This document shows, piece by piece, positions 31,078 to 44,515 of a stretch of 52,026 bases of DNA. Both the position numbers and the translations under genes were made by a program. Origin of the DNA: Acholeplasma laidlawii (GTDB lineage Bacteria; Bacillota_I; Bacilli_A; Acholeplasmatales; Acholeplasmataceae); contig NZ_JADNRS010000010.1 of the NCBI RefSeq assembly GCF_015709225.1, positions 1 to 52,026 of the forward strand, given 5' to 3'. The notes beneath the pieces are model-generated. The model was not told the origin of the DNA and did not search any database. It worked only from the letters and a program-made list of their open reading frames with translations. Each line of letters starts with the position of its first letter. Position 1 is the stretch's first letter.

Positions 31078-33687
31078 ATGACAAAACTATTTTCTTACCC
31101 TATGAAAAAATTAGTTGTCTTAACAGTGCTTATAGCTACATTATTTACACTTATAGCTTGTACAAATGAAAATGAAACTGAAAATAAAAATGATACAGAT
31201 GTTACAATTACATTTGAAACAAATGACACAGTATCTAAAGAATCAGTAACAATCAAATCAGGAACTTTATTAAGTGAAACAGAGCTATCCATTCATGATA
31301 GAGAGGATTTCACTTTTAATGGTTGGTATACAGATGAGGCATTAACGAAACCTTTTGACCCTTTAAAAGAAATAGAGGAATCTATGAAATTATATGCTAA
31401 ATGGACAGAGGATGAAGTACCTACTTATCGTTATGAACTTCTGTTCAATGGCGGTAACTACCGGTATGAGAACAGAGAACAAATGGTAGATGATTTTATA
31501 AGTGATTATAATACATTTAGTGATAATGCATATACACTTGAAACTTTACCGATGGATAAAGACGGTTTATTAGATATTGCTGAATTTATGTATGAAGAAA
31601 CCTACAGAACAAAGTGGTTATGGTTAACAAGATATTTAAGATTAGTTGGATCAGATACTAATAAATCCTCCATGAGTGCATTATTAGCTCAATCTAGTTT
31701 AGATAAGTTCTTGGCACAAAACGAGAAAAATAGAAAAGCTGTATCTTATGAAATTAGAGCGTTTATCAAAGGGGCACAGTTTACAGATGATGAAACATTA
31801 AGTTCATCAGATTATACAGACACTGAACTTAAAGAAGGCTTTTGGCCTTTCATAGTCGGATCTCAACAAGCCATATTTGAAGATGCAAAACACGAGGTGA
31901 TATTACCAACCACCTTATACAAAGAAGGCTTTGTGTTCTATGGTTGGTATTTAACTGAAAACTTTTATGGTGAACCAGTGACTAAAATTAATGGTTCAGC
32001 AACTTTATTTGCACGATTTGATGGTGAAAATCCAATTGATTCCGTCATTATTGAAAACGAAGTAGAATATATGGAAAAAGGCACAGAGTTAGCACTGGAT
32101 ATAACAATTCTTCCACTAGATGCAACCTATAAAGATTTAAGTTTTGAAATTAGGGAACAATCTATAGCATCTATAAGTGCTGAGGGTGTGATCACTGCAT
32201 TAAATGAAGGAGAGTTTACAGTATATATCATGGCTGAAAATGGTAGATTATTAAAGGTTGTTGACATGACAGTTTATCCAAAAGATGATATTAACTTAAC
32301 CTTTAATGAAGGCTTTAATGGTTATTTAAAAGTGAATGAACAATTTGAAATTGAAGTTACTGGAGTAGGCAGAGATGCATCAAGTAACCACTATACATTT
32401 AGCGTTGTTGATGACAGTGTGATTCAAATGTCTGAGTCGGGTGTATTTAATGCTCTTAAAGTAGGTTCTACAGAAATAAACATTTTAAACTTGGATACAG
32501 TTGTAATGACATATACTGCAATTGTACAAGATGATTTATCTACATCTAGAGTTGATCAATTACTTGAGTTATTAAGAGATGGGCATAATGCTGTAGCTAC
32601 ACCATTTACTCTAGTAACTAGATATGAAACGACCAATGAATGGCGTGATCCTAGACACGAGAGTGTCAACACATATCTATTTGATGATTTAGTCATTGAT
32701 AAGGATAGTTATCCAATGCCAGATGGCTTAAAAAACAGTGGTGCTAGACCTTCAACAGAGTTTATCTTATTACATGATACAGCAAATCTCCATATTGGAT
32801 TAATGGCACATGGTGCATTCTTCCAAAGTGCTGCAAATGCAGTATCTATTCACTATATTACAGGAGATTATGGTGTGCTACAAAGCTTAGCTGAAGATAG
32901 AATTGGATGGCATGCTGGTGATGGCACAGGTACAAGTTTTGAGTGGTATAAGACAGGTGTTATGGCAACAAATAATGAAAAACCATTTATTGATATTTCA
33001 GAAGACGGATTCTTTACCTTTAATGGTGAAAAATCAGTAGTTGAAGCACCAAGAGGTTTAAATGGTGAAATACTTACTAGAGATTACTTTACATATTTAG
33101 GACCAACATGGGATATATTTGATGGTGAATATGTCATCGGTAGAACATACCTTGCAACTAATCAACAAAAACGTGGTGTGATTGCATCCTTTGGTGGAAA
33201 TAGAAACTCAGTGGGTATTGAAATGAGTATTAATGTCGATGGTGATATTGTCGATACAGTACAAAGAACAGCAAAACTTGTTGCATACCTATTAGAAAAA
33301 TATGACTTACCAAATCATAGAGTCATTACACATAATACAACAGACGGTAAAGGAGATCCTTACACATTACACAATACGGTATATAAAGGCACTTGGTACT
33401 TTGATAGATTTATGGAACACGTTGAAATAGAACGTGAGATATTAGTGAATTATAGCGATGCTAAAATTACACTCACATCGGATTCTGATTTAGTATCTTC
33501 AACAGGTAGAATAACAAGATTCCCTGATGTGACAACTGAGGTTAAGTATACAATTACAGTTGAAATTGACGGTGTGTCAAAATCAATAGATTTAGTAAGT
33601 GTTGTTCCAGGTATGAGTACATGGAATCAATACCATGGCTTCTTTACACCAACACAAGCATGGGCTAAAGCAGATTATAGAAAGTAA
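31078..33687 (+). CDS. Large lipoprotein with N-acetylmuramoyl-L-alanine amidase domain
   Basis: The 869-aa protein has a lipobox with C28 (LFTLIAC), two beta-repeat segments of the InlB/Flg_new type (FNGWYTDEALTKPF near 80-95; FYGWYLTENFYGEPV near 290-305), and bacterial-Ig-like stretches (about 330-500). The Amidase_2 domain spans about 540-770, with likely zinc ligands H566 (LLHDTAN), H752 (ITHNTTDGKGDP) and D760, plus H592 and H612 (GWHAGDG) and the VGIEMSIN motif. It should act at the cell surface on peptidoglycan peptide stems, which the organism itself is not thought to make. RBS AGGAGG lies 6 nt before the ATG. Confidence 0.88.
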   Translation: MTKLFSYPMKKLVVLTVLIATLFTLIACTNENETENKNDTDVTITFETNDTVSKESVTIKSGTLLSETELSIHDREDFTFNGWYTDEALTKPFDPLKEIEESMKLYAKWTEDEVPTYRYELLFNGGNYRYENREQMVDDFISDYNTFSDNAYTLETLPMDKDGLLDIAEFMYEETYRTKWLWLTRYLRLVGSDTNKSSMSALLAQSSLDKFLAQNEKNRKAVSYEIRAFIKGAQFTDDETLSSSDYTDTELKEGFWPFIVGSQQAIFEDAKHEVILPTTLYKEGFVFYGWYLTENFYGEPVTKINGSATLFARFDGENPIDSVIIENEVEYMEKGTELALDITILPLDATYKDLSFEIREQSIASISAEGVITALNEGEFTVYIMAENGRLLKVVDMTVYPKDDINLTFNEGFNGYLKVNEQFEIEVTGVGRDASSNHYTFSVVDDSVIQMSESGVFNALKVGSTEINILNLDTVVMTYTAIVQDDLSTSRVDQLLELLRDGHNAVATPFTLVTRYETTNEWRDPRHESVNTYLFDDLVIDKDSYPMPDGLKNSGARPSTEFILLHDTANLHIGLMAHGAFFQSAANAVSIHYITGDYGVLQSLAEDRIGWHAGDGTGTSFEWYKTGVMATNNEKPFIDISEDGFFTFNGEKSVVEAPRGLNGEILTRDYFTYLGPTWDIFDGEYVIGRTYLATNQQKRGVIASFGGNRNSVGIEMSINVDGDIVDTVQRTAKLVAYLLEKYDLPNHRVITHNTTDGKGDPYTLHNTVYKGTWYFDRFMEHVEIEREILVNYSDAKITLTSDSDLVSSTGRITRFPDVTTEVKYTITVEIDGVSKSIDLVSVVPGMSTWNQYHGFFTPTQAWAKADYRK

Positions 33688-33711
33688 TTATAAAAAACAA
33701 GATAATAAGAT

Positions 33712-33762
33712 AACACTCCAAGTTTAAATGTGACCTACATCTAAAACTTGGGGTGTTTTACT
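33712..33762 (+). terminator. Terminator of the amidase-lipoprotein gene
   Basis: A 14-bp stem with one mismatch (33712-33725 with 33744-33757, loop of 18) is followed by TTT. Confidence 0.8.
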
Positions 33763-33885
33763 TAATTAAATACATATATTGAAAAACGACTTGCTTATTT
33801 GATATAATAAAACACCGCAAAAGATAGAAATATACCTAATTTAGTGATACAATGTATATGCTAATAGAGGAAAAAGGTGAATATT

Positions 33886-34428
33886 ATGAATATATGGCAT
33901 GACATAAATCCATCCCGCATAACACCGGAGCGTTTTATTGTTTGTATTGAGATTACTAAAGGTAGTAAAAAGAAGTACGAACTAGATAAAGAAACAGGGA
34001 TGATTATTTTAGATAGAGTATTATACACATCAGCGCATTATCCAGCAAACTATGGATTTATTCCTAGAACTTATGCAGGGGATAATGACCCACTAGATGT
34101 TTTAGTACTATGTCAAGAAGACATTGAGCCAATGTCTTTAGTAGAAGTGTATCCAATTGGTGTCATAAAAATGATTGATAGTGATGAAGTAGATGAGAAA
34201 ATTATTGCAATTCCTTATGGGGATCCATCTATGACACAGTATAAAGATTTAAAGGGGTTACCACATCATTTACTTTCCGAGATTTCTCACTTTTTTGAAG
34301 TGTATAAATCCTTAGAAGGAAAGAAAACATACATTCTTGACATTGAGTCAAGAGATGAGGCAATTAAAGTTGTATCTGAGGCTATGGTCTCATACGACAA
34401 AGTATTTACAAATAAGAAAGAGAAGTAA
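33886..34428 (+). CDS. ppa: Soluble inorganic pyrophosphatase (family I)
   Basis: Ppa hydrolyses pyrophosphate and so drives biosynthetic reactions in the cytoplasm. The 180-aa protein shows the active-site region YPANYGFIP, the signature GDNDPLDVLVL and the K-D-Y-type C-terminal half (QYKDLKGLP). I chose ATG 33886 with AGGTG before it; an in-frame GTG three codons earlier (33877) is the alternative. The YebC gene follows 5 bp later. Confidence 0.95.
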   Translation: MNIWHDINPSRITPERFIVCIEITKGSKKKYELDKETGMIILDRVLYTSAHYPANYGFIPRTYAGDNDPLDVLVLCQEDIEPMSLVEVYPIGVIKMIDSDEVDEKIIAIPYGDPSMTQYKDLKGLPHHLLSEISHFFEVYKSLEGKKTYILDIESRDEAIKVVSEAMVSYDKVFTNKKEK

Positions 34429-34433
34429 ACATT

Positions 34434-35153
34434 ATGGGTAGAGCATTCGAAGTAAGAAAAGCATCAATGGCAAAAACTGCCGCAGCAAAATCAAAAGTAT
34501 ATTCAAGATATGGTAGAGAAATCTACATGGCAGCTAAAGCAGGAACACCAGATCCTGAGACAAACCAAGCTCTTAAAAGAGTTATTGAACGTGCAAAGAA
34601 GGAACAAGTCACAGCTGATATTATTAAACGTAATATTGATAAAGCTAAAGGTGGCAGTGATGAAAACTATGCAGAAATCAGATATGAAGGTTTTGGTCCA
34701 GAAGGTAGCTTAATTATTATTGAGTGTTTAACTGATAATACAAATAGAACTATTTCAGATGTAAGAAAACTGTTTAATAAGGCATATGGAAAACTAGGTG
34801 TATCCGGTTCTGTATTACACCAATTTGATCATAAAGCAGTATTTGAAGTTGAAGCACCTGAAAATAAATTATTAGAAATCTTATTAGAAAACGATGTGGA
34901 TATTACTGACTATGAAGCAGAAGAAGGTGTAGTTACAATTTATGCTGAACCTACTGAGTACGGTAAAATAGCTGACGTTTTAAAGGATAACAACCTAGAG
35001 AGTAAGGAAGAAGCAATTATGTTTATTCCGATGCAAACTATGGAAATTAAAGATCCCGAAGAACAAGCTAAATTTGATCGTTTGATTGAAGGATTAAACG
35101 AACTTGATGATGTTAAAGACGTTTTCCATAACGTTATAAGTTCGGGCGAGTAA
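34434..35153 (+). CDS. YebC/PmpR-TACO1 family regulator
   Basis: The 239-aa protein belongs to the YebC family. Members are described as DNA-binding regulators or as ribosome-associated factors that help translate proline-rich stretches. The N-terminus MGRAFEVRKASMAKTAAAKSK and the segment YEGFGPEGSLIIIECLTDN identify the family. It follows ppa by 5 bp, so both form one transcript ending at a strong terminator. Its target here is unknown. Confidence 0.93.
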   Translation: MGRAFEVRKASMAKTAAAKSKVYSRYGREIYMAAKAGTPDPETNQALKRVIERAKKEQVTADIIKRNIDKAKGGSDENYAEIRYEGFGPEGSLIIIECLTDNTNRTISDVRKLFNKAYGKLGVSGSVLHQFDHKAVFEVEAPENKLLEILLENDVDITDYEAEEGVVTIYAEPTEYGKIADVLKDNNLESKEEAIMFIPMQTMEIKDPEEQAKFDRLIEGLNELDDVKDVFHNVISSGE

Positions 35154-35177
35154 TTCTTAATACTTAATAAAAACCTT

Positions 35178-35223
35178 GAGGTATATCACTTACGTAATCG
35201 GTGTGATATACCTCGTTTTTTTA
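35178..35223 (+). terminator. Strong terminator of the ppa-yebC operon
   Basis: A perfect 12-bp stem GAGGTATATCAC/GTGATATACCTC (35178-35189 with 35203-35214) is followed by GTTTTTTTATT. Confidence 0.92.
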
Positions 35224-35308
35224 TTTATTAGTAGTTTTATAAATCGATAGCAAGTTTAATCGCTACATGTTTATTCTGATAATTATAATCTGATAATATT
35301 GCTAATAT

Positions 35309-35494
35309 ATGAGCACTATGAAAAAGAAAAAATTAATTGATATAAGTGACTTTGTTAATGTTGAAACAATACAAGTAGTCACGTATAATTTGATGAATAG
35401 ATTTAGATTAAGAAGAAAATAACTTGGTTTACTTTCAGAGTTTAATTATTTATTTAGTAGACCTATAATTAAGGATATTCGTAGGGATAAATGA
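35309..35494 (+). pseudogene. Degenerate short reading frame, possibly an HTH-protein relic
   Basis: An ATG at 35309 opens 37 codons ending at TAA (35420-35422), then the same frame continues for 23 more codons to TGA (35492-35494). The joined sequence, with RFRLRRK before the stop and LGLLSEFNYLFSRPI after it, vaguely recalls an XRE-type helix-turn-helix (RLRRKxLGL). No good RBS is seen. A terminator-like hairpin lies 100 bp downstream. This is a weak call. Confidence 0.3.
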
Positions 35495-35594
35495 ATTTCG
35501 ATGCTAAGCGACATAATATAACCTATAACAATAAAGTTGTTGGTTATATAGTAGGTATAAGGAAATGTGAATAGACTTTTTTAAACTGATTGAG

Positions 35595-35622
35595 AATGTT
35601 TAGATGATTATAAACATTTTTT
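35595..35622 (+). terminator. Terminator-like hairpin after the degenerate frame
   Basis: AATGTTTA/TAAACATT (35595-35602 with 35611-35618) runs into TTTTTT. It has no intact gene to serve and fits a lost gene upstream. Confidence 0.7.
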
Positions 35623-35653
35623 GTAATTTATAGATAAAATACGATAAAAATGT

Positions 35654-35667
35654 TGTAAGCGTTATCA
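35654..35667 (+). promoter_or_regulatory. Perfect cre site upstream of glyA
   Basis: TGTAAGCGTTATCA matches the CcpA consensus at all 14 positions. It lies about 120 bp before the glyA promoter, a distance more usual for activation or for a different promoter. Confidence 0.7.
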
Positions 35668-35763
35668 ATTATAGGTTTATTTGCAATTAGATTATTTAAT
35701 CTATAAAATATATGTATTGATTTACTTTACACATTTTTTTGTTATGTCCAAATCACCATTGCA

Positions 35764-35785
35764 ATGTATAAATATATTTATACAT
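35764..35785. promoter_or_regulatory. Perfect 22-bp palindrome in the glyA promoter (likely operator)
   Basis: ATGTATAAATA directly followed by TATTTATACAT is an exact palindrome. Its last bases include the T of the TGG of the extended -10, so a bound dimer would block RNA polymerase. Confidence 0.65.
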
Positions 35786-35793
35786 GGTAAAAT
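35785..35793 (+). promoter_or_regulatory. Extended -10 of the glyA-rnf operon
   Basis: TGGTAAAAT (TG at 35785-35786, TAAAAT at 35788-35793) lies 34 bp before the glyA start. No good -35 exists; the place is taken by the palindrome. Confidence 0.6.
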
Positions 35794-35827
35794 ATAGTGA
35801 AAAGATATTTTACGATGAGGTATAACT

Positions 35828-37057
35828 ATGACATTAAAAGACTATGATCTTGAATTATTTAACGCGATTCAAAGAGAAGATAACAGACAAAAAGAACATA
35901 TCGAATTAATTGCGTCCGAAAACTTTGTTTCTGATGCAGTGTTAGAGGCTCAAGGTTCAATTTTAACCAACAAATATGCAGAAGGCTATCCAAATAAAAG
36001 ATATTATGGAGGTTGTGAATTTGTTGATCAAGTAGAAATACTTGCTCAAGATAGGTTAAAACGAATCTTTAATGCGAAGTTTGTAAATGTACAGCCTCAT
36101 TCGGGTTCACAGGCTAATGCTGCTGTTTATCAGGCACTACTTAGTCCTGGAGACAGAGTTTTAGGAATGGATTTAAATGCGGGTGGTCACTTAACTCATG
36201 GTTATAAACTATCATTTTCCGGACATTATTATGAAACACATGCCTATGGTGTAAGTCCGGTTGATGAAAGAATTGATTATGAAGAAGTACTAAAAATCGC
36301 AATTGAAGTTAAACCTAAAATGATTATTGCAGGGGCGAGTGCATATCCAAGAGTCATTGATTTTAAAAAGTTTAGAGAAATTGCAGATACTGTTGGTGCA
36401 TACTTGTTTGTAGATATGGCACATATTGCTGGACTAGTTGCTTGTGGATTACATCCATCACCACTACCTTATGCAGATGTTGTAACGTCTACTACACATA
36501 AAACCTTAAGAGGTCCACGTGGCGGTATCATTCTTACAAATGATGCGAGTATTGCTAAAAAGATAGATCGTGCAGTATTTCCTGGCCAACAAGGTGGGCC
36601 ACTAATGCATATTATTGCTGCAAAGGCAGTTGCATTTAAAGAAGCACTAGACCCTAGCTTTAAGGTATATCAAACACAAGTGATTAAAAATGCTAAAGCC
36701 TTAAGTGATACATTTAAATCACTTGGATATAAATTAATTTCAGATGGTACGGATAATCATTTAATCTTAGTAGATGTTAAATCAAAATTAGGTATTACCG
36801 GAAGAGATGCTGAGGATGCGTTATATAAAGCAAATATCACAATCAATAAAAACCAGTTACCGTTTGATCAAGAAAAACCGATGTTAACCTCAGGTATAAG
36901 ATTAGGAACACCTGCGATGACAACTAAAGGTTTTAAAGAAAATGAGTTTATTAAAGTAGCACAACTTATTGATGAAGTACTATCAAACATAAATAATGAA
37001 GAAGTTATCAATAAAGTAAAAAAAGAAGTACTAAAACTAATGAAAGATGTTAAATGA
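35828..37057 (+). CDS. glyA: Serine hydroxymethyltransferase
   Basis: GlyA converts serine and THF to glycine and methylene-THF, using PLP. The 409-aa protein has [11 protein letters not shown], the tetrapyridoxal region [15 protein letters not shown], and the Schiff-base lysine in [22 protein letters not shown] precedes the ATG. It is the first gene of a transcript that continues after 16 bp into rnfC and the electron-transfer genes, an unusual partner. It connects with fhs and folD in folate metabolism. Confidence 0.97.
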
Positions 37058-37073
37058 AAAGGAGTGATTTTCT

Positions 37074-38372
37074 TTGATTACAAGAACAAGATATATACCT
37101 GATGGTAAAGATGTTTTAAAGAAACTACCATTAATCCATCACTTAGAAGCACCATATTTATACTATCCAATTACAAACCAAAGATGCCCGGAAGGTGAAA
37201 CTTGCGTTGTTTTTGGTCAATTTGTTAAGGTTGGTGAAATTATTGGTACAAGAAAGGGTGCTTTCTTTGAACAACCAATTCACTCAACAGTTAGTGGTGA
37301 AGTTGTTGGGCATGAAATGAAGTTTGATGCTTCAGGAAAACGTGTAAACTGTATGATTGTTAAAAACGACTTCAAATATGAATTACATGAGTCTGTTAAA
37401 ACAAGAACTGATGAAGAAATAGACAAACTAACTAAAGAAGATTACGTAAATATTACTAAAGAAGCTGGTCTAGTTGGTCTAGGTGGTTCAGGTTTTCCAA
37501 CTTATATTAAATTAAATACTAAAAATAAGATTGACATCATCTTAGCAAACGGTGTTGAGTGTGAGCCTAAATTAATTTCAGACTATGAAGTTATGATGGA
37601 AAGCCCGGATGAACTTATTAAAGGTTTAATCTATGCAATGAAAGCTGTTGGTGCACCTAAAGGTATAATTGCAGTTAAGAAAAGATATGTGGAATTAGTA
37701 GAAAGAATCCGTTTTTCTCTAAACTCATATACTGAGTATGATATTAAAGTTGTACCAGTTGGTAACCACTACCCACAAGGTTGGGAGTTAGAAGCAATTG
37801 AGGCGGCTACTGGTATTAAGGTACCTCAATTTAAACTTCCAGCAGATTACGGTATCATTCCATTTAACGTTTCTACGTTACAATCTATTTATCATGCAGT
37901 GAAGTTTAACTTACCTGTACTTGAAAGATACTTTGTATTATCAGGTGATGGTGTTGTAAACAAATCATTTAAAGCTAGAATTGGTACACCAATTCAAAGC
38001 TTAATTCAACTTGCCGGTGGTTATGTAGATAAGGCGGTGCCTAAAACATTAATCATGGGTGGGCCAATGATGGGTAGTAACGTAACAAATGATGATATTG
38101 TAACAACACATACAGCAACCTCATTGATTGTTCAAAACTCACTGTTATTAAACGAAGATCCTTGTATTCACTGTGCAAGTTGTGTCTATTCTTGCCCAGT
38201 ACAAATACAACCGGTTCAAATAATGAATGCTGTTAAAGCAAACGATAAAGATTTCTTAAAAGCTTTATCAGTTAATAAATGTATTGAATGTGGATTATGT
38301 TCATTTGTATGTCCATCTAAGATTCATTTAACAGATTACATGCGTGAAGGTAAACGCATCTTAAGGGGTTAA
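37074..38372 (+). CDS. rnfC: RnfC-like NADH-binding iron-sulfur subunit
   Basis: RnfC is the cytoplasmic subunit that exchanges electrons with NAD(H) in Rnf complexes. The 432-aa protein has an N-terminal barrel, the nucleotide/FMN-binding motif GLGGSGFPTYIKL (about 135-147), a SLBB-like region, and two [4Fe-4S] ferredoxin motifs: C364, C367, C370, C374 and C403, C406, C409, C413. The start is TTG at 37074, with AAAAGGAG placed 9 nt upstream. RnfD follows 2 bp after its stop. Direction of electron flow cannot be read from the sequence. Confidence 0.93.
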   Translation: MITRTRYIPDGKDVLKKLPLIHHLEAPYLYYPITNQRCPEGETCVVFGQFVKVGEIIGTRKGAFFEQPIHSTVSGEVVGHEMKFDASGKRVNCMIVKNDFKYELHESVKTRTDEEIDKLTKEDYVNITKEAGLVGLGGSGFPTYIKLNTKNKIDIILANGVECEPKLISDYEVMMESPDELIKGLIYAMKAVGAPKGIIAVKKRYVELVERIRFSLNSYTEYDIKVVPVGNHYPQGWELEAIEAATGIKVPQFKLPADYGIIPFNVSTLQSIYHAVKFNLPVLERYFVLSGDGVVNKSFKARIGTPIQSLIQLAGGYVDKAVPKTLIMGGPMMGSNVTNDDIVTTHTATSLIVQNSLLLNEDPCIHCASCVYSCPVQIQPVQIMNAVKANDKDFLKALSVNKCIECGLCSFVCPSKIHLTDYMREGKRILRG

Positions 38373-38374
38373 TT

Positions 38375-39445
38375 ATGCAAAATATATCAATTTTAAGCCA
38401 AACATCACCGTATATACGTAAAGAAACTTCTACAAAACGTATGATGTTTGATGTGTTAATTGCGCTAACTCCTGTAGTATTCTTTTCAATCTACAGATTT
38501 GGATTAGATGCATTAGCAAGAATATTAATTAGTTTAATTATCTTTGTTGGTGTGGAAGCTTTATATTTTTTAAGTGTTACGCGTGTAGATGGTTATAATT
38601 TCAAAGATAAAATTAAAAATAAGTTTAAAAAATATACAATTAATAACTTTAGTGCACCTGCAGTATCTGCCATCATTTATGCAATGATATTACCAGACCA
38701 ACTACATCTTTATGTGGTTGTTATGGGGGCTTTATTTGGAGCTGCAATCGGTAAAATGATTTTTGGTGGTTTAGGGATGAATATCTTTAACCCTGCAGGA
38801 GTTGGACGTGTATTTATTGCATTAGCATTTACAACATTCTTCACAGGTTCTTATGGGTTCATTGATGCTGCAGCAGGTGCTACAGCATTATCTACAAGTT
38901 TTCCTGAAGTATTAAATAGTTATTCATTAATCGATTTACTCGTTGGTAATATCCCAGGATCTATGGGAGAGATTAACTCACTAGCTATTTTATTTGGTCT
39001 TGCATATCTATTAATTAGAAAAAGTGCAGATTATAGACCTGTTTTATCAGGACTATTAATCTTTACAGCACTTGCTACAGTTGCAGGATTCATACTACAT
39101 CCTACATTAGTATTTGAATATGTGATATTCCAATTATTATCTGGTGGTTTATTATTTGGTCTAACCTTTATGATTACGGACCCTGCAACATCACCAATCA
39201 CAAGACCAGGTCGTTGGTGGTTTGGCTTAATTGTAGGTTCATTAGTATTCTTCATTAGAATTTTTGGTAGTCTTCCTGAAGGTGTAGTATTTGCATTACT
39301 ATTTGGTAACTTAATGGTACCTTTACTAGATTATCCAATGTGGGCAAATAATAGTTTTACAAAGAAATTCTATCTTAGCTTTAGTTTAGTATTTGTAGCT
39401 TTAGTAGCACTTACCTTCGTGATTTTAGGAGGTTATGCAATATGA
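38375..39445 (+). CDS. rnfD: RnfD-like membrane subunit with covalent FMN site
   Basis: The 356-aa integral membrane protein (about eight to ten helices) matches the RnfD/NqrB family. The flavinylation motif DAAAGATALS carries T170, where ApbE would attach FMN, and the C-terminal part has the family's TFMITDPATSPITRPGRWWFG segment. It overlaps rnfG by 4 bp. In Rnf and Nqr this subunit helps couple electron flow to ion transport; whether it pumps H+ or Na+ here is unknown. Confidence 0.93.
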   Translation: MQNISILSQTSPYIRKETSTKRMMFDVLIALTPVVFFSIYRFGLDALARILISLIIFVGVEALYFLSVTRVDGYNFKDKIKNKFKKYTINNFSAPAVSAIIYAMILPDQLHLYVVVMGALFGAAIGKMIFGGLGMNIFNPAGVGRVFIALAFTTFFTGSYGFIDAAAGATALSTSFPEVLNSYSLIDLLVGNIPGSMGEINSLAILFGLAYLLIRKSADYRPVLSGLLIFTALATVAGFILHPTLVFEYVIFQLLSGGLLFGLTFMITDPATSPITRPGRWWFGLIVGSLVFFIRIFGSLPEGVVFALLFGNLMVPLLDYPMWANNSFTKKFYLSFSLVFVALVALTFVILGGYAI

Positions 39446-40383
39446 CAAAAACAGTTAAAAGTATGATCACATTAGCGGTGGTATTAATTTTAGGTATTGG
39501 TCTTTCAATTGGTACCCACCTAATATTTAATCCGATTAAAGAAGAACGTGCTAAACAAGAAACACTTTCTATATTAGATGATTACTTTATAGGTGTTACA
39601 GATTTTGAAGGAAACAAGCTTGAAGTAATCGAAGGTGTTGAAATCTTAAGATCTGTTCGTGTTTATAAAAATGAAGATCCACTAGGTTATCTATATGAGG
39701 CAAATATTACAAATGATTTTGGTAATATGAAAGTTCGTTTAAGCGTGGATGTTAAAGATGTCATTCAAACTATTGAGTTCTTAGAACTTAATCAAACAAT
39801 GTACTTACAACAAACAACAACAATGCTTGAAACATATGTATTAAGCAAGTTAAGTACAGATATTTTTGATGGTGCTGCTGGTGCAACATCCATCTCAAAA
39901 AATGATCTATCACACTTAATGAGTATGGTAGGATTACATCATGATAAAACAGATAAATTTGAAATCCAAGCACCTTATAAAGAATTCTATGGTGATGACT
40001 ACGTGATTTCAAATACAGAAGAACTATCCAACTCTGGTGCAACTATCAAGGTTGAAACGATTGAAGGTTTAGGTGTTGTTTATACAATTACTAAATCAGG
40101 AATTTACCAAACAGATAGTACTCAAGAAAAATCAATTACACTTGTTCTTGCATTAAATAATGATAATAAAATTATTGGTGTACTTTTACCAGCCGAGTTA
40201 TATAACCACACTAAGGGTGGATTTATGACAAATGCAATGGAATTTGCTCAAAGCTTTAAAGATACGTCAATTCTTGATGTAACAGATGGCAATGCTGGTG
40301 CAACAGGTGATGTTTTAGCACATAATTCAAGAACCTTAATCGAAGATATGGTGTTAATTGTTCAGGGGGTACATATCTCATGA
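39442..40383 (+). CDS. rnfG: RnfG-like protein with two flavinylation motifs
   Basis: The 313-aa protein has one N-terminal membrane helix (about 7-27) and an extracytoplasmic part with two FMN_bind-like halves. Two motifs of the ApbE target type are seen: DGAAGAT with T149 and DGNAGAT with T288. Standard RnfG (about 200 aa) has one. It overlaps rnfD and the second G-like gene by 4 bp each, so all are coupled. It probably holds two covalent FMN groups outside the membrane. The tandem layout is read from sequence; FMN loading is inferred. Confidence 0.85.
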   Translation: MTKTVKSMITLAVVLILGIGLSIGTHLIFNPIKEERAKQETLSILDDYFIGVTDFEGNKLEVIEGVEILRSVRVYKNEDPLGYLYEANITNDFGNMKVRLSVDVKDVIQTIEFLELNQTMYLQQTTTMLETYVLSKLSTDIFDGAAGATSISKNDLSHLMSMVGLHHDKTDKFEIQAPYKEFYGDDYVISNTEELSNSGATIKVETIEGLGVVYTITKSGIYQTDSTQEKSITLVLALNNDNKIIGVLLPAELYNHTKGGFMTNAMEFAQSFKDTSILDVTDGNAGATGDVLAHNSRTLIEDMVLIVQGVHIS

Positions 40384-41297
40384 AAAAAGAAAATTTAATT
40401 TTAGTTTTAATGTTTGGTTTAATGTTACTTGTTAGTCTTATTGCATTAAGTTTTGATTATCTATTCCCAACATCAGTTGTGGATAAGATGTTTAATCAAA
40501 ATGTCAATGTTGTGAATGTAAAACCTGTAATTGATGCTGAATATAACGAAATACTAGAACAAGCAGAAGTTACAACATTAGATGGTAAAAAAATTGCAGA
40601 TCTATATACAGTTAGAATTGATCATACTTACTTCTATTTAGAACTATATGTAGGTATTGATTTGGATGGTAAAGTTTATGCAAGAGATAAATACGTTAGA
40701 ACAAAAGATGATACATCATCTAGTTACTTTCCACTTGTTCGTGCATACTTACTAAAAAACTATAATGGTCTGTATTATGAAAATGTTCAATTTATTGATG
40801 GTGCAGCAGGCGCAACAACGATTGTCGTATCAAGATCTATTATAAAAAATGCTGTAAGTAAAGTTGTAGTCTTCCACGTAGGTGAAGAAGTAGATCACAT
40901 TGAAACATTACTAGGTGATAAATACACATTGAATAGTGAAGCTACAGACGGTAATGTAACAACTTATGATGTAACATTTAATAATTTAGACTATACAGTT
41001 TATATGGCAACAGGCACTGATACATATTATGACTTCCAAAGTGTAAATGAAGGCAGTATCACAATTTATGTTGCAGTCGATAGTGATGGTAAAATTACAC
41101 ATACATTATTACCTGAAGCATTATATGGCCATTCAGGTGGAAACTTCTATAGTGCAACAAACACCTTCTTAAGTGGTGTTATCGGTTATAATTTAAATGA
41201 TCCAATGCCAGATGCAACAACTGGACCAACAACAAACTCAAACGGTTCACAATACTTAGTAAATCAGTTATTACTAGATATTCAAGGAGGGGCTTAA
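40380..41297 (+). CDS. Second RnfG-like protein (paralogue)
   Basis: The 305-aa protein resembles the one before it: one N-terminal helix (about 5-29) and two extracytoplasmic halves. The first half has a clear flavinylation motif DGAAGAT with T146. The second has only a similar stretch, DATTGPTTNSNG (about 278-289), where Ala of GAT is replaced by Pro, so it may not be flavinylated. It probably arose by duplication with its neighbour. RnfE follows 1 bp after its stop. Confidence 0.8.
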   Translation: MKKENLILVLMFGLMLLVSLIALSFDYLFPTSVVDKMFNQNVNVVNVKPVIDAEYNEILEQAEVTTLDGKKIADLYTVRIDHTYFYLELYVGIDLDGKVYARDKYVRTKDDTSSSYFPLVRAYLLKNYNGLYYENVQFIDGAAGATTIVVSRSIIKNAVSKVVVFHVGEEVDHIETLLGDKYTLNSEATDGNVTTYDVTFNNLDYTVYMATGTDTYYDFQSVNEGSITIYVAVDSDGKITHTLLPEALYGHSGGNFYSATNTFLSGVIGYNLNDPMPDATTGPTTNSNGSQYLVNQLLLDIQGGA

Positions 41298-41298
41298 G

Positions 41299-41877
41299 AT
41301 GAATAAAAACAATTTAAAACCATTTATTTTATTAAGCATCCTACCGCTTATCTATTTAGCAAATACATTAGAAACTGCGCTTTTTATGGGGTTAGTTTAT
41401 GTTATATTAGCACTTATCATTTATGCTGGTGGTCTATTGATTAATAAATTTAGTGAAGGTAGAATGCGCTCATATGCATATATCTTATTAACAGCTTCAA
41501 TTGTAACAATCATTATGACAGTATTAGGGACATATTTCTCATTAAATCAATTAATGGGTATTTACTTAGCACTTACAATATTTACAATTCCTCAACTAAG
41601 ATTAGAAACAGTTGAAGAAAAATCTATTTTGGATCATGGCCTTATGATTCTAGTAGGTTTTGTAGCACTCGTACTGATTGGTTTCTTAAGAGAGTTCTTA
41701 GGTACTGGAAGTATTGGTTTACTAGCATTTGGATTAGACACAGTACAAGTGTTTGATGCTAAATTTGGTATTGCTATCTTAAAAGACAACTCAGGTGGTT
41801 TCATCTTAGCAGGATTTATCTTTGCTATTATAAATGCCATACCTTTTGTAAAGGAGGATAAAGCAGATGTTATTTAA
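41299..41877 (+). CDS. rnfE: RnfE-like membrane subunit lacking cysteines
   Basis: The 192-aa protein has about six membrane helices and matches RnfE/NqrD, for example GFLREFLGTGSIG and the SGGFILAGFIFAIINA end. Known RnfE proteins carry two conserved cysteines that, with those of RnfA, bind an intramembrane [2Fe-2S] cluster. This protein has no cysteine; the GLCPLLA-type region reads LSILPLIYLA. It overlaps rnfA by 11 bp. Its role may be structural or ion-conducting. Confidence 0.85.
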   Translation: MNKNNLKPFILLSILPLIYLANTLETALFMGLVYVILALIIYAGGLLINKFSEGRMRSYAYILLTASIVTIIMTVLGTYFSLNQLMGIYLALTIFTIPQLRLETVEEKSILDHGLMILVGFVALVLIGFLREFLGTGSIGLLAFGLDTVQVFDAKFGIAILKDNSGGFILAGFIFAIINAIPFVKEDKADVI

Positions 41878-42424
41878 TTTATTATCTAGTTTACTAGGTG
41901 CTGCAATCCTTTCAAATGTTATTTTACAAGGGGTTGGATTAGAAGCGATTAAAGATCGTGAGATCAGAGTTAAACCAGTATTAGTGAAATCTTCACTGAT
42001 TAGTTTACTAGCACTTGTAGTTTTCTTAGTTGATTATGTTGTATTAGAATTTGTTTTAGTACCAATGGATATGGCATTCCTAAATATCATTGTATTAGCT
42101 TTATTGATGATTGGTGTGAACGAGCTTTATAAACTTGTTACTGATAAAACAAAGTTTGCATTACCTAAAGAAGAATTATTTGGATTACACTCTATTGTGA
42201 TTATTGTTGGATTTATGGGGTTGTCAAATGTTGCATTTGATGAAGCATTTATCCAAGTTGTTGGTTCATTAATAGGCTTTATTGGTCTATCCATATTACT
42301 TACAATGATTCAATCTAGAATGCGTGTAAATCCGCTTATCAAGTCATTTAAAGGATTACCAATTCTACTCATTATACTGGGCTTAATTGCTTTAGTATTT
42401 AGTGGGTTAGCAGGATTATTTTAA
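41867..42424 (+). CDS. rnfA: RnfA-like membrane subunit lacking cysteines
   Basis: The 185-aa protein has about six membrane helices and is placed where rnfA normally lies, after rnfE. Similarity to RnfA/NqrE is modest (LLGAAILSNVILQGVGLEA at the N-terminus). It contains no cysteine, while standard RnfA has two that bind the shared [2Fe-2S] cluster. In a normal operon rnfB would follow; here the next gene is apbE. The call rests on position, size and helix pattern together. Confidence 0.78.
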   Translation: MLFNLLSSLLGAAILSNVILQGVGLEAIKDREIRVKPVLVKSSLISLLALVVFLVDYVVLEFVLVPMDMAFLNIIVLALLMIGVNELYKLVTDKTKFALPKEELFGLHSIVIIVGFMGLSNVAFDEAFIQVVGSLIGFIGLSILLTMIQSRMRVNPLIKSFKGLPILLIILGLIALVFSGLAGLF

Positions 42425-42449
42425 AAACATATAAAAAGGAAAAAAGAAC

Positions 42450-43532
42450 ATGAAAAAAATATGGGCAGTTATCAACTTAATATTAATCAGTGTTCTTTTT
42501 TCTGCTTGTACTCAAACATCCGTAGAAAATAGTTTAGCCATATCATCAATGCATACATTTATTGGTGGTACAGTATATGCACCCAAGTCTGTTTTTAATA
42601 AAGCAGATAAAAAATTAAAAGAAATGTATGATTTTTATAACAAACTAACAGATAACTATAGAGGTTATGAAGATGTACAAGGCATCTATTATATTAATCA
42701 GTTAGTTGAGACAACTAAAACTGATCAAACAGTCGAAATTAAAAAAGAACTATATGATCTATTAAGTTTAGGGGTTGAACTCTATGAATTTACTGATGGA
42801 TACTTTGATATGTCCATTGGTAAAATAATTGATGTTTGGAAAAACTTAATTGATGAAAGTGATTATACAGGTCAAGAAATACCTAAAGAAGATATCGACT
42901 ATGCCATAAGCTTAGTGGATACAATTGATATCGTTGAAGATCCCGTGATTTTAAGTGAAGTGGATAATAAATATTATGTAACACTTAAATATGGTGCAAA
43001 ACTAGACTTAGGTGCGCTTGCTAAAGGCTATGTCACTCAATTAGCCGCAGATTACTTAAAGGATTTAGGTATAAGTAATTATTTAATTAGCGGTGGTGGT
43101 TCTTCCATGTTATATGGTGAAGGTAATCCAAAGACTGAGGATGGTAGTTATAGAACAGGACTTATTAATCCACAAGATGTCATAGATAACTTAGATATTA
43201 TTGGATATCGACCTAAAAATTACGGCATTTATACATCTAAAAACTATAACTTCACAACATCAGGAACTTATAATCAATTTATCGTAAGTGAAAATGTGAT
43301 GTATCATCATATTGTCTCACCAAAAACAAAACGTCCGGTAAATCATTATCTAACACTTTCAATTGTTGGAACAGATGCTGGATTTAATGATGGTTTATCC
43401 ACAGCACTATTTAGTATGCCACCGGAAGTTTTAGAACAGTTTTTAGAAACAAATGGTTATGAGGTCTATACATATTTATTTAATAATACTTATAAATCTT
43501 ATAATCAATCTGAAAACTTTAGACCACTTTAA
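42450..43532 (+). CDS. apbE: FAD:protein FMN transferase (ApbE) lipoprotein
   Basis: ApbE cuts FAD and attaches FMN to Thr or Ser in target motifs of RnfD and RnfG-type proteins. The 360-aa protein has a lipobox with C20 (LFSAC), so it works on the outer face. Motifs seen are DLGALAKGY, YLISGGGSSML, HHIVSPKTKRPV and the metal-binding DAGFNDGLSTALF. Its place directly after the rnf genes matches its substrates, up to five candidate sites in the same operon. Confidence 0.95.
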   Translation: MKKIWAVINLILISVLFSACTQTSVENSLAISSMHTFIGGTVYAPKSVFNKADKKLKEMYDFYNKLTDNYRGYEDVQGIYYINQLVETTKTDQTVEIKKELYDLLSLGVELYEFTDGYFDMSIGKIIDVWKNLIDESDYTGQEIPKEDIDYAISLVDTIDIVEDPVILSEVDNKYYVTLKYGAKLDLGALAKGYVTQLAADYLKDLGISNYLISGGGSSMLYGEGNPKTEDGSYRTGLINPQDVIDNLDIIGYRPKNYGIYTSKNYNFTTSGTYNQFIVSENVMYHHIVSPKTKRPVNHYLTLSIVGTDAGFNDGLSTALFSMPPEVLEQFLETNGYEVYTYLFNNTYKSYNQSENFRPL

Positions 43533-43544
43533 TTAGGTGATGAT

Positions 43545-44009
43545 ATGAAGAAAAGAGATTATATCATCATTGGTGGACTATTATTTGTTGTAGGTATACT
43601 CTATATTTGGGTTACATTTTTTGGAGCCCCAACTGGTAGTATTGCTTATGTATATCAAGATAATGATGTGGTAATTAGTGTAAACTTTGATGACAATAGT
43701 TATGAGTTAACACCACAAACGATTGATAATAACTACCCACTTCTTACAGACCCTGTACCTAATGAGGGTGGTGATGTTGCCTTTATTATTAAGGGTGCTT
43801 ATATCCATGAAGGTGAAAGAACGTTAGTCTATATCGAAATTGATTGGGATAAAAAGGCAATACGTATCCAAAAAGATGAGACACCAAGACAAATTGGTGT
43901 TAGACGTAATTGGTATGATGGCACAGGGTTACCTGCAGTATCCTTACCAAGTAAAGTGTTTATCGTATTTGAAACAGTAGAAGATGATGGGATTGATGGT
44001 GTTGTATGA
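43545..44009 (+). CDS. NusG domain II-type protein
   Basis: The 154-aa protein has one N-terminal membrane helix (about 7-26) and a beta-rich outer domain (about 35-120). It resembles the NusG-II (DUF1312) proteins often found next to Rnf or ApbE genes in Firmicutes. Its role is unknown. It overlaps the next gene by 4 bp. The family call is moderately sure, supported mainly by context and size. Confidence 0.65.
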   Translation: MKKRDYIIIGGLLFVVGILYIWVTFFGAPTGSIAYVYQDNDVVISVNFDDNSYELTPQTIDNNYPLLTDPVPNEGGDVAFIIKGAYIHEGERTLVYIEIDWDKKAIRIQKDETPRQIGVRRNWYDGTGLPAVSLPSKVFIVFETVEDDGIDGVV

Positions 44010-44515
44010 AAAACTTAAATAGAATTACAACATTGTCGATGCTAATTGCAGTAGCAATTGTCTTAAACGTCATTGAAATCTCAATTAATGTCATACCTGT
44101 ACCAGGTGCAAAAATTGGATTTGCAAATATCGTAACGGTCATTGTCTTATATATGTATGGATTTAGATCTGCTTCACTTGTTACGATTTTAAGAGTATTC
44201 TTAGTAGGGTTACTCTCAAGATCGTTTACCATACCATTTTGGATGGGCTTGGGTGGTGCAATTGTATCTATTACAGTGATGGGTATCTTCAAAAACTGGT
44301 TTAAATTACACTTAATTAGCGTCTCTGTCCTAGGTGCTATCACACATACATTAGGACAAGTGATTGTAGGCATATATCTATTAGAAACAGACCTACTTAT
44401 ACTCTACTTACCACTGATGTTACTCATTAGTATACCTGCTGGTATTTTAATCGGTATCATCGCCCAGCGATTCTTTAAAACATTTAACCGTAGCAAATAT
44501 CAACGCTCATTATAA
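44006..44515 (+). CDS. Gx transporter family membrane protein (HepS-I-like)
   Basis: The 169-aa protein has about five membrane helices and shows the family pattern PGAKIGFANIVTVIVLYMYG and FWMGLGGAIVSI. Such proteins are annotated as Gx transporters or component I of heptaprenyl diphosphate synthase and often follow NusG-II genes near Rnf operons. Substrate unknown. It is the last gene of the glyA-rnf transcript. Only a weak hairpin (about 44515-44535) follows, so the end of the operon is not clear. Confidence 0.75.
   Translation: MKNLNRITTLSMLIAVAIVLNVIEISINVIPVPGAKIGFANIVTVIVLYMYGFRSASLVTILRVFLVGLLSRSFTIPFWMGLGGAIVSITVMGIFKNWFKLHLISVSVLGAITHTLGQVIVGIYLLETDLLILYLPLMLLISIPAGILIGIIAQRFFKTFNRSKYQRSL

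Follow-up and report, generated by a model that had tools for sequence, protein, structure and literature searches.

Can an Rnf complex remain under selection once it has lost the route by which electrons enter from ferredoxin? This question is raised by an operon in a 52,026-nucleotide stretch of the wall-less bacterium Acholeplasma laidlawii (contig NZ_JADNRS010000010.1, positions 1 to 52,026; referred to here as the window). The operon encodes RnfC, RnfD, two RnfG-like proteins (G1 and G2) and relatives of RnfE and RnfA without cysteines (designated E* and A*). In Acetobacterium woodii the electron path is U-shaped and runs from ferredoxin through RnfB, the [2Fe-2S] cluster of RnfA/RnfE, the flavin mononucleotide (FMN) of RnfG and the FMN and riboflavin of RnfD to RnfC and NAD (PMC11889175). 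The parts missing in A. laidlawii are exactly those of the ferredoxin-to-RnfG arm, and the RnfC–RnfD–RnfG arm appears intact. From sequence evidence, and with a probability of roughly 0.7, we propose that this Rnf has been reduced to the arm NADH–RnfC–RnfD–RnfG and would act as a one-way electron export system.

The retained arm

The operon comprises nine genes on the forward strand (37074-44515) in the order RnfC, RnfD, G1, G2, E*, A*, ApbE, EetA-like and EetB-type (Table 1), separated by gaps of at most 26 bases or overlapping by 4–11 bases. An earlier, sequence-only reading of the window had listed the first six open reading frames (37074-42424). Their positions are exact, and the operon continues beyond them to 44515.

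RnfC aligned with the solved RnfC 7zc6_C over its full length (2e-70), including all eight cysteines. The alignment confirmed that both [4Fe-4S] motifs (CxxCxxCxxxC, at 38163 and 38280) and the NADH/FMN site GLGGSGFPT (Gly138 region at 37485) are retained, as had been claimed. The start codon of rnfC at 37074 is apparently TTG and lies 16 bases past the end of glyA. In RnfD, Thr170 of the motif DAAAGATALS (38882-38884) aligned with the solved NqrB/RnfD and is the predicted site of covalent FMN. Two further residues, Asn136 and Asp269, fall in motifs corresponding to those with the riboflavin ligands in solved RnfD; their assignment to N123 and D249 of A. woodii was based on these motifs and not on a structure.

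G1 and G2 are homologous to each other (hhalign 8e-28). Both are anchored and carry conserved DxxxGA[ST] motifs, and their matches to FMN_bind and RnfG are weak, as is that of G1 to RnfG 7zc6_G. Candidate FMN threonines of G1 are Thr149 (39886) and Thr288 (40303). In alignments over 10 genomes the first flavinylation motif of G1 was well conserved and that of G2, DGAAG[AG]TT with candidate Thr146 at 40815, was near-invariant; conservation was lower for the second motif of G2, DATTGPT with Thr284 (41229). With an AlphaFold model of G2 (predicted local distance difference test score, pLDDT, 83), Foldseek returned RnfG chains at a probability of 0.93-0.99, but with E ~0.03-0.05, a low TM-score and many poor matches. 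The earlier statement that several covalent FMN sites remain agrees with the predicted flavinylation motifs in RnfD, G1 and G2.

The ApbE flavin transferase is an apparent lipoprotein (signal ...LFSAC, lipobox Cys20). The NusG domain II protein is presumably EetA, a name suggested by its position; its gene is conserved beside that of EetB. The last gene product belongs to PF07456, the eetB family, whose Listeria member exports flavin adenine dinucleotide (FAD) (PMC9973259). It is probably an FAD exporter feeding ApbE.

Identity and lost ligands of E* and A*

Cysteine is absent from the 192 residues of E* and the 185 residues of A*, as the sequence-only reading had stated. Family matches of the single sequences were weak. 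When family profiles were used, the solved RnfE 7zc6_E ranked first for E* (1e-15) and the solved RnfA 7zc6_A ranked first for A* (1e-20). The alignment of E* against A* by hhalign gave no match, so that each is tied to its own solved counterpart. For a low-confidence model of A* (pLDDT 61), Foldseek ranked RnfA and NqrE chains highest, which lends weak support. Judged by profile comparison, E* and A* are true relatives of RnfE and RnfA. The earlier reading had allowed that they might be unrelated proteins; these matches, together with the alignment of their ligand columns with those of canonical sequences, rule this out.

Alignments of 64 sequences each for E and A revealed two columns in either protein that are cysteine in canonical sequences. 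The window has Leu15 (41341) and Ile97 (41587) there in E*, and Glu26 (41942-41944) and Ser109 (42191-42193) in A*, that is, none of the four cysteine ligands of the [2Fe-2S] cluster. Their counterparts in Clostridium tetanomorphum, Cys25/Cys113 of RnfA and Cys26/Cys109 of RnfE, lie at half-helix kinks and have been called invariant, within a region strictly conserved in Nqr and Rnf (PMC9588780). In A. woodii the same cysteines bind the [2Fe-2S] cluster, and their mutation abolishes ferredoxin:NAD activity (PMC11889175). Retention of the cluster by other ligands is unlikely, because the two E* positions offer Leu, Ile, Val, Ala or Met alone. The first A* position is Glu in all eight genomes of the source genus (g1) and in G008, and Asp in G009; the second is Ser in all ten. 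Genus g5 has a deletion at the first A* position, and in G015 there is no Ser at the second.

The carboxylate in A* brings in another reading, which we consider unlikely. E* and A* would move Na+ or H+ across the membrane by a cluster-free alternating-access mechanism, coupled to electron flow through RnfG, with the buried Glu26 of A* in place of [2Fe-2S]. In its favour, RnfA and RnfE form the Na+ path of canonical Rnf (PMC11889175), and g1 and g2 conserve Glu/Asp followed by Ser, with Asp/Glu and Thr at the corresponding places in a separate cysteine-less pair of genus g14; movement of a counter-cation would also balance the exported electrons. However, g5 lacks the first position and G015 has no Ser at the second, E* has no matching polar residue, both proteins evolve fast, the A* model is of low confidence, and a Glu that closes a half-helix may simply point to the lipid surface or solvent. 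If the reading were true, outward flow through RnfC, RnfD and RnfG would drive, or be balanced by, cation movement through E*/A*, making the complex an electron-export pump of Rnf descent whose ion channel contains no membrane redox centre.

Loss of the ferredoxin side

The earlier statement that RnfB is missing from the operon was extended to the whole genome. PF04060 had no match in the source genome (99.7% complete) or in any of the 12 genomes bearing the cysteine-less operon, and positive controls were detected, which rules out a hidden RnfB. Within the order, RnfB was present in 93 of 160 genomes. Pyruvate:ferredoxin oxidoreductase (PFOR, PF01855) was found in 92 of these 93, the exception being a genome 74% complete, and in 0 of the 12 operon-bearing genomes. 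The ferredoxin arm was lost along with PFOR and so was probably left without a partner.

The source genome makes a quinone route unlikely: it gave no match to the UbiA-family prenyltransferase (14/14 controls positive), so that quinone synthesis left no sign there, and cytochrome bd was likewise not found. NqrA_N was also absent from this genome. Neither NqrA nor NqrF is encoded in the operon, and the type II NADH dehydrogenase Ndh2 is likewise not in the operon, to which the search for it was confined.

The claim that NqrF is missing holds for the operon and fails for the genome. Contig C48 carries an NqrBCDEF cluster without NqrA, in which NqrC has 656 residues with four FMN_bind domains and NqrD and NqrE have two cysteines each. 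Genes of a V-type ATPase lie downstream of this cluster, in a genome without sign of quinone synthesis. Contamination was ruled out: the contig is 177 kb long and has the composition of the window (tetranucleotide correlation 0.986), and its NqrF occurs at 99% identity in the single-contig genome G005. The C-D-G core of the operon could conceivably combine with NqrD, NqrE and NqrF of C48 into a two-arm circuit built from two loci, since the cluster offers both NqrF and cysteine-bearing D/E proteins, only NqrA (the counterpart of RnfC) is missing from it, and all eight genomes of the genus, as well as G015, contain its NqrF. We regard this as very unlikely. G008, G009 and G014 carry the cysteine-less operon without NqrF, so that NqrF is not required for the operon; moreover, each cluster encodes its own E/A pair, and a circuit with NADH at both ends has no obvious driving force.

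Distribution and origin of the operon

The cysteine-less operon was found in 12 genomes of three genera of the family: all eight searched in the source genus, G008 and G009 (g2), and G014 and G015 (g5). All four ligands and RnfB are missing in 12 of 12, so that the loss extends to other Acholeplasma genomes; the records include A. oculi, A. granularum and A. equifetale. The nine genes are intact and in order in the source genus, G008 and g5, except that no EetA-like gene was identified in the G014 operon. G008 and G014 are both 99% complete and consist of one contig, and the G009 locus is a contig fragment ending inside ApbE.

In every operon locus whose contig extends that far, glyA adjoins rnfC. 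The glyA product shares 64-99% identity with that of the rnfC-adjacent gene in 15 other loci, both canonical and cysteine-less. This common synteny indicates decay in place of an ordinary Rnf locus. In 44 canonical Rnf loci of the same taxonomic order the cysteines are kept wherever the sequence covers the site (in four, the first E ligand falls outside the recovered reading frame), and the other families of the class add 19 loci that keep them, one of which has its first E ligand in a masked run. Nearly all of the 44 canonical loci have a small RnfB-like gene beside rnfA, and all their genomes have a match to PF04060. This RnfB of about 105–106 amino acids consists of a membrane helix and a single iron–sulfur domain, with no polyferredoxin part. 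The reduced form is possibly an intermediate towards complete loss.

A further case of joint loss is a separate cysteine-less E/A pair in genus g14, in a genome without RnfB. In L060 it lies beside subunits I and II of cytochrome bd and a 496-residue RnfD-FMN_bind fusion, and a g14 pair adjoins an NqrBCDEF cluster with cysteines.

Selection on the altered complex

Between the window and L045, also cysteine-less, identities were 90% for C, 82% for D, 74% for A and 60% for E. The canonical pair L052/L054 gave 94% for A, 89% for C, 88% for E and 85% for D. Canonical loci conserve A and E as much as C and D or more, and in cysteine-less loci the order is C > D > A > E. Constraint is thus reversed: RnfC is the most conserved subunit and E* the least, opposite to normal Rnf. 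The close relative G005 shares 97-99% identity with the window over RnfC, RnfD, E* and A*; against it, the ratio of nonsynonymous to synonymous substitution rates (dN/dS) was 0.107 for E* and 0.095 for A*, indicating purifying selection. As these ratios stay near 0.1 despite the lost site, the proteins are needed and the redox site is not.

The fast divergence of E* and A* and their loss of the cofactor could also be read as signs of a decaying remnant without function. This can hardly be correct, given nine intact, ordered genes in the source genus, G008 and g5 (apart from the EetA-like gene of G014), dN/dS of 0.016-0.135 over all nine and RnfC identity of 81-99% within the genus.

Proposed electron path

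In the proposed one-arm complex, NADH would deliver electrons to RnfC, with its FMN and two [4Fe-4S] clusters. From there they would cross the membrane via the riboflavin and covalent FMN of RnfD to the covalent FMNs that G1 and G2 would carry on the outer face, and then pass to an outside acceptor, for which oxygen, ferric iron and a flavin shuttle are candidates. ApbE would attach the outer FMNs, with its FAD provided by the EetB-type exporter. The other arm (RnfG, the [2Fe-2S] cluster in RnfA/E, RnfB and ferredoxin) would have been lost together with PFOR, and E* and A* may serve as a scaffold for RnfD and G, with no electron transfer by the known cluster. We infer the outward direction, the acceptor, the scaffold role and the absence of pumping.

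The sequence-only reading had concluded that the standard route cannot work. This is right for the ferredoxin-to-RnfG arm, which is missing, and wrong for the RnfC–RnfD–RnfG arm, which appears intact. All the evidence is consistent with its proposal of a re-purposed NADH-linked, flavin-based extracytoplasmic system. That RnfB, the four cysteines and PFOR are missing together strengthens this proposal; its wording on the route and on NqrF needs changing.

The sequence does not fix the direction, and in canonical Rnf the forward reaction ends with the reduction of NAD+ by RnfC (PMC11889175). Electrons could then run inward from an outside reductant through G, RnfD and RnfC to NAD+, which we think very unlikely: the operon encodes no outside dehydrogenase. 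Fermenting mollicutes have surplus NADH to dispose of; it is not in short supply.

Several points weigh against electron export. The co-loss of RnfB, PFOR and the ligands counts as one to three evolutionary events, between which the trees do not discriminate, rather than 12, because the operon-bearing genomes are related. Among ferredoxin enzymes the search covered PFOR alone. No protein dedicated to accepting electrons outside the cell was found among the operon genes, and conservation is poor at the second FMN site of both G1 and G2. Since EetB and ApbE accompany ordinary Rnf in 572 genomes of Clostridia (PMC9973259), their presence alone is no pointer to export, and EetA/EetB as a mark of extracellular electron transfer (EET) was dropped for this reason. 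Finally, outward electron flow without a counter-cation dissipates the membrane potential, which a pure scaffold role of E*/A* leaves unexplained.

Comparison with related systems

The operon shares with Rnf of A. woodii and C. tetanomorphum the C- and D-type cofactor motifs, candidate G-type motifs, the E/A-type proteins and the gene order. It differs from them in lacking RnfB and the four membrane ligands and in having two two-domain G proteins instead of one RnfG. Rnf loci of sister genera (e.g., L058 and L061) have the same glyA-side position and C-D-G-E-A order and mostly ApbE/EetB nearby, but keep all four cysteines and the reduced RnfB.

The NQR/RNF-like one-arm systems have a single path, for which one-way export has been proposed, with NAD(P)H as the donor and an outer FMN_bind protein as the recipient (PMC8238504, PMC10979944). 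The likeness lies in having the components of only one transmembrane path, here the C-D-G arm with the return arm absent. Those systems consist of two proteins, an RnfD-like domain fused to an NqrF-type NAD domain (PF00175) and an FMN_bind protein, whereas the operon uses RnfC as its NADH module, has an unfused RnfD with its FMN threonine and retains cysteine-less RnfE/RnfA. With Na+-NQR it has in common a homologous membrane core, but it has neither NqrA nor NqrF, NADH would enter via RnfC, and the genome shows no sign of quinone synthesis. With the Listeria EET locus it shares an ApbE-type transferase, an EetB-type exporter and outer flavinylated proteins (predicted here); the Rnf C-D-G arm replaces Ndh2 and demethylmenaquinone, and the operon contains no PplA-like protein.

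Table 1. Positions of the operon genes, the adjoining glyA and the loci used for comparison
Feature	Position	Strand	Remarks
RnfC	37074..38372	+	432 amino acids (aa); TIGR01945 4e-95, above cut-off
RnfD	38375..39445	+	356 aa; PF03116 3e-80, no other family match
G1	39442..40383	+	313 aa; N-terminal membrane anchor and two FMN_bind-like domains; FMN_bind match weak
G2	40380..41297	+	305 aa; anchored, two FMN_bind-like domains; alignment over 10 genomes
E*, RnfE/NqrD-like membrane protein	41299..41877	+	192 aa, 0 Cys; PF02508 37 bits
A*, RnfA/NqrE-like membrane protein	41867..42424	+	185 aa, 0 Cys; RsxA 1.5e-8
ApbE flavin transferase	42450..43532	+	PF02424 7e-45
EetA-like, NusG domain II	43545..44009	+	PF07009 9e-10; one N-terminal hydrophobic segment
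EetB-like energy-coupling factor (ECF) substrate-binding subunit	44006..44515	+	PF07456 2e-34
glyA, serine hydroxymethyltransferase	35828..37057	+	Name from the sequence itself; ends 16 bases before rnfC
NqrBCDEF cluster, source genome	L011 8906-14165 = contig C48 ~32905-38164		NqrA missing
Reduced RnfB	L058 9193-9513; L061 6287-6604; ~40 other loci		
g14 cysteine-less RnfE/RnfA pair	L060 6622-11308; L121 20-1200		

Implications

These data describe a real, conserved one-arm variant of Rnf, of which we found no earlier description in the searchable papers. Nothing direct was found on Rnf without RnfB, on Acholeplasma Rnf or on the membrane NADH oxidase of Acholeplasma, in a search that left most subscription papers outside. 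Natural complexes conserved over three genera retain RnfA/E-type proteins and yet have lost a site supposed to be invariant. Since the two arms of the U-shaped circuit are already set apart here by nature, the operon can be used to test the disputed site of ion pumping, RnfA/E versus RnfD.

The finding also bears on the origin of Nqr. According to one scenario of its descent from Rnf, the loss of RnfB rendered RnfC non-functional (PMC4014512). Here, unlike in that scenario, no other subunit is as well conserved as RnfC, even though RnfB is gone. An NADH oxidase of the membrane that contained FMN and iron–sulfur was reportedly purified from A. laidlawii around 1981, and the complex would be a candidate for this enzyme. 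The operon provides gene candidates for membrane NADH oxidation in Acholeplasma, in a genome without a quinone prenyltransferase.

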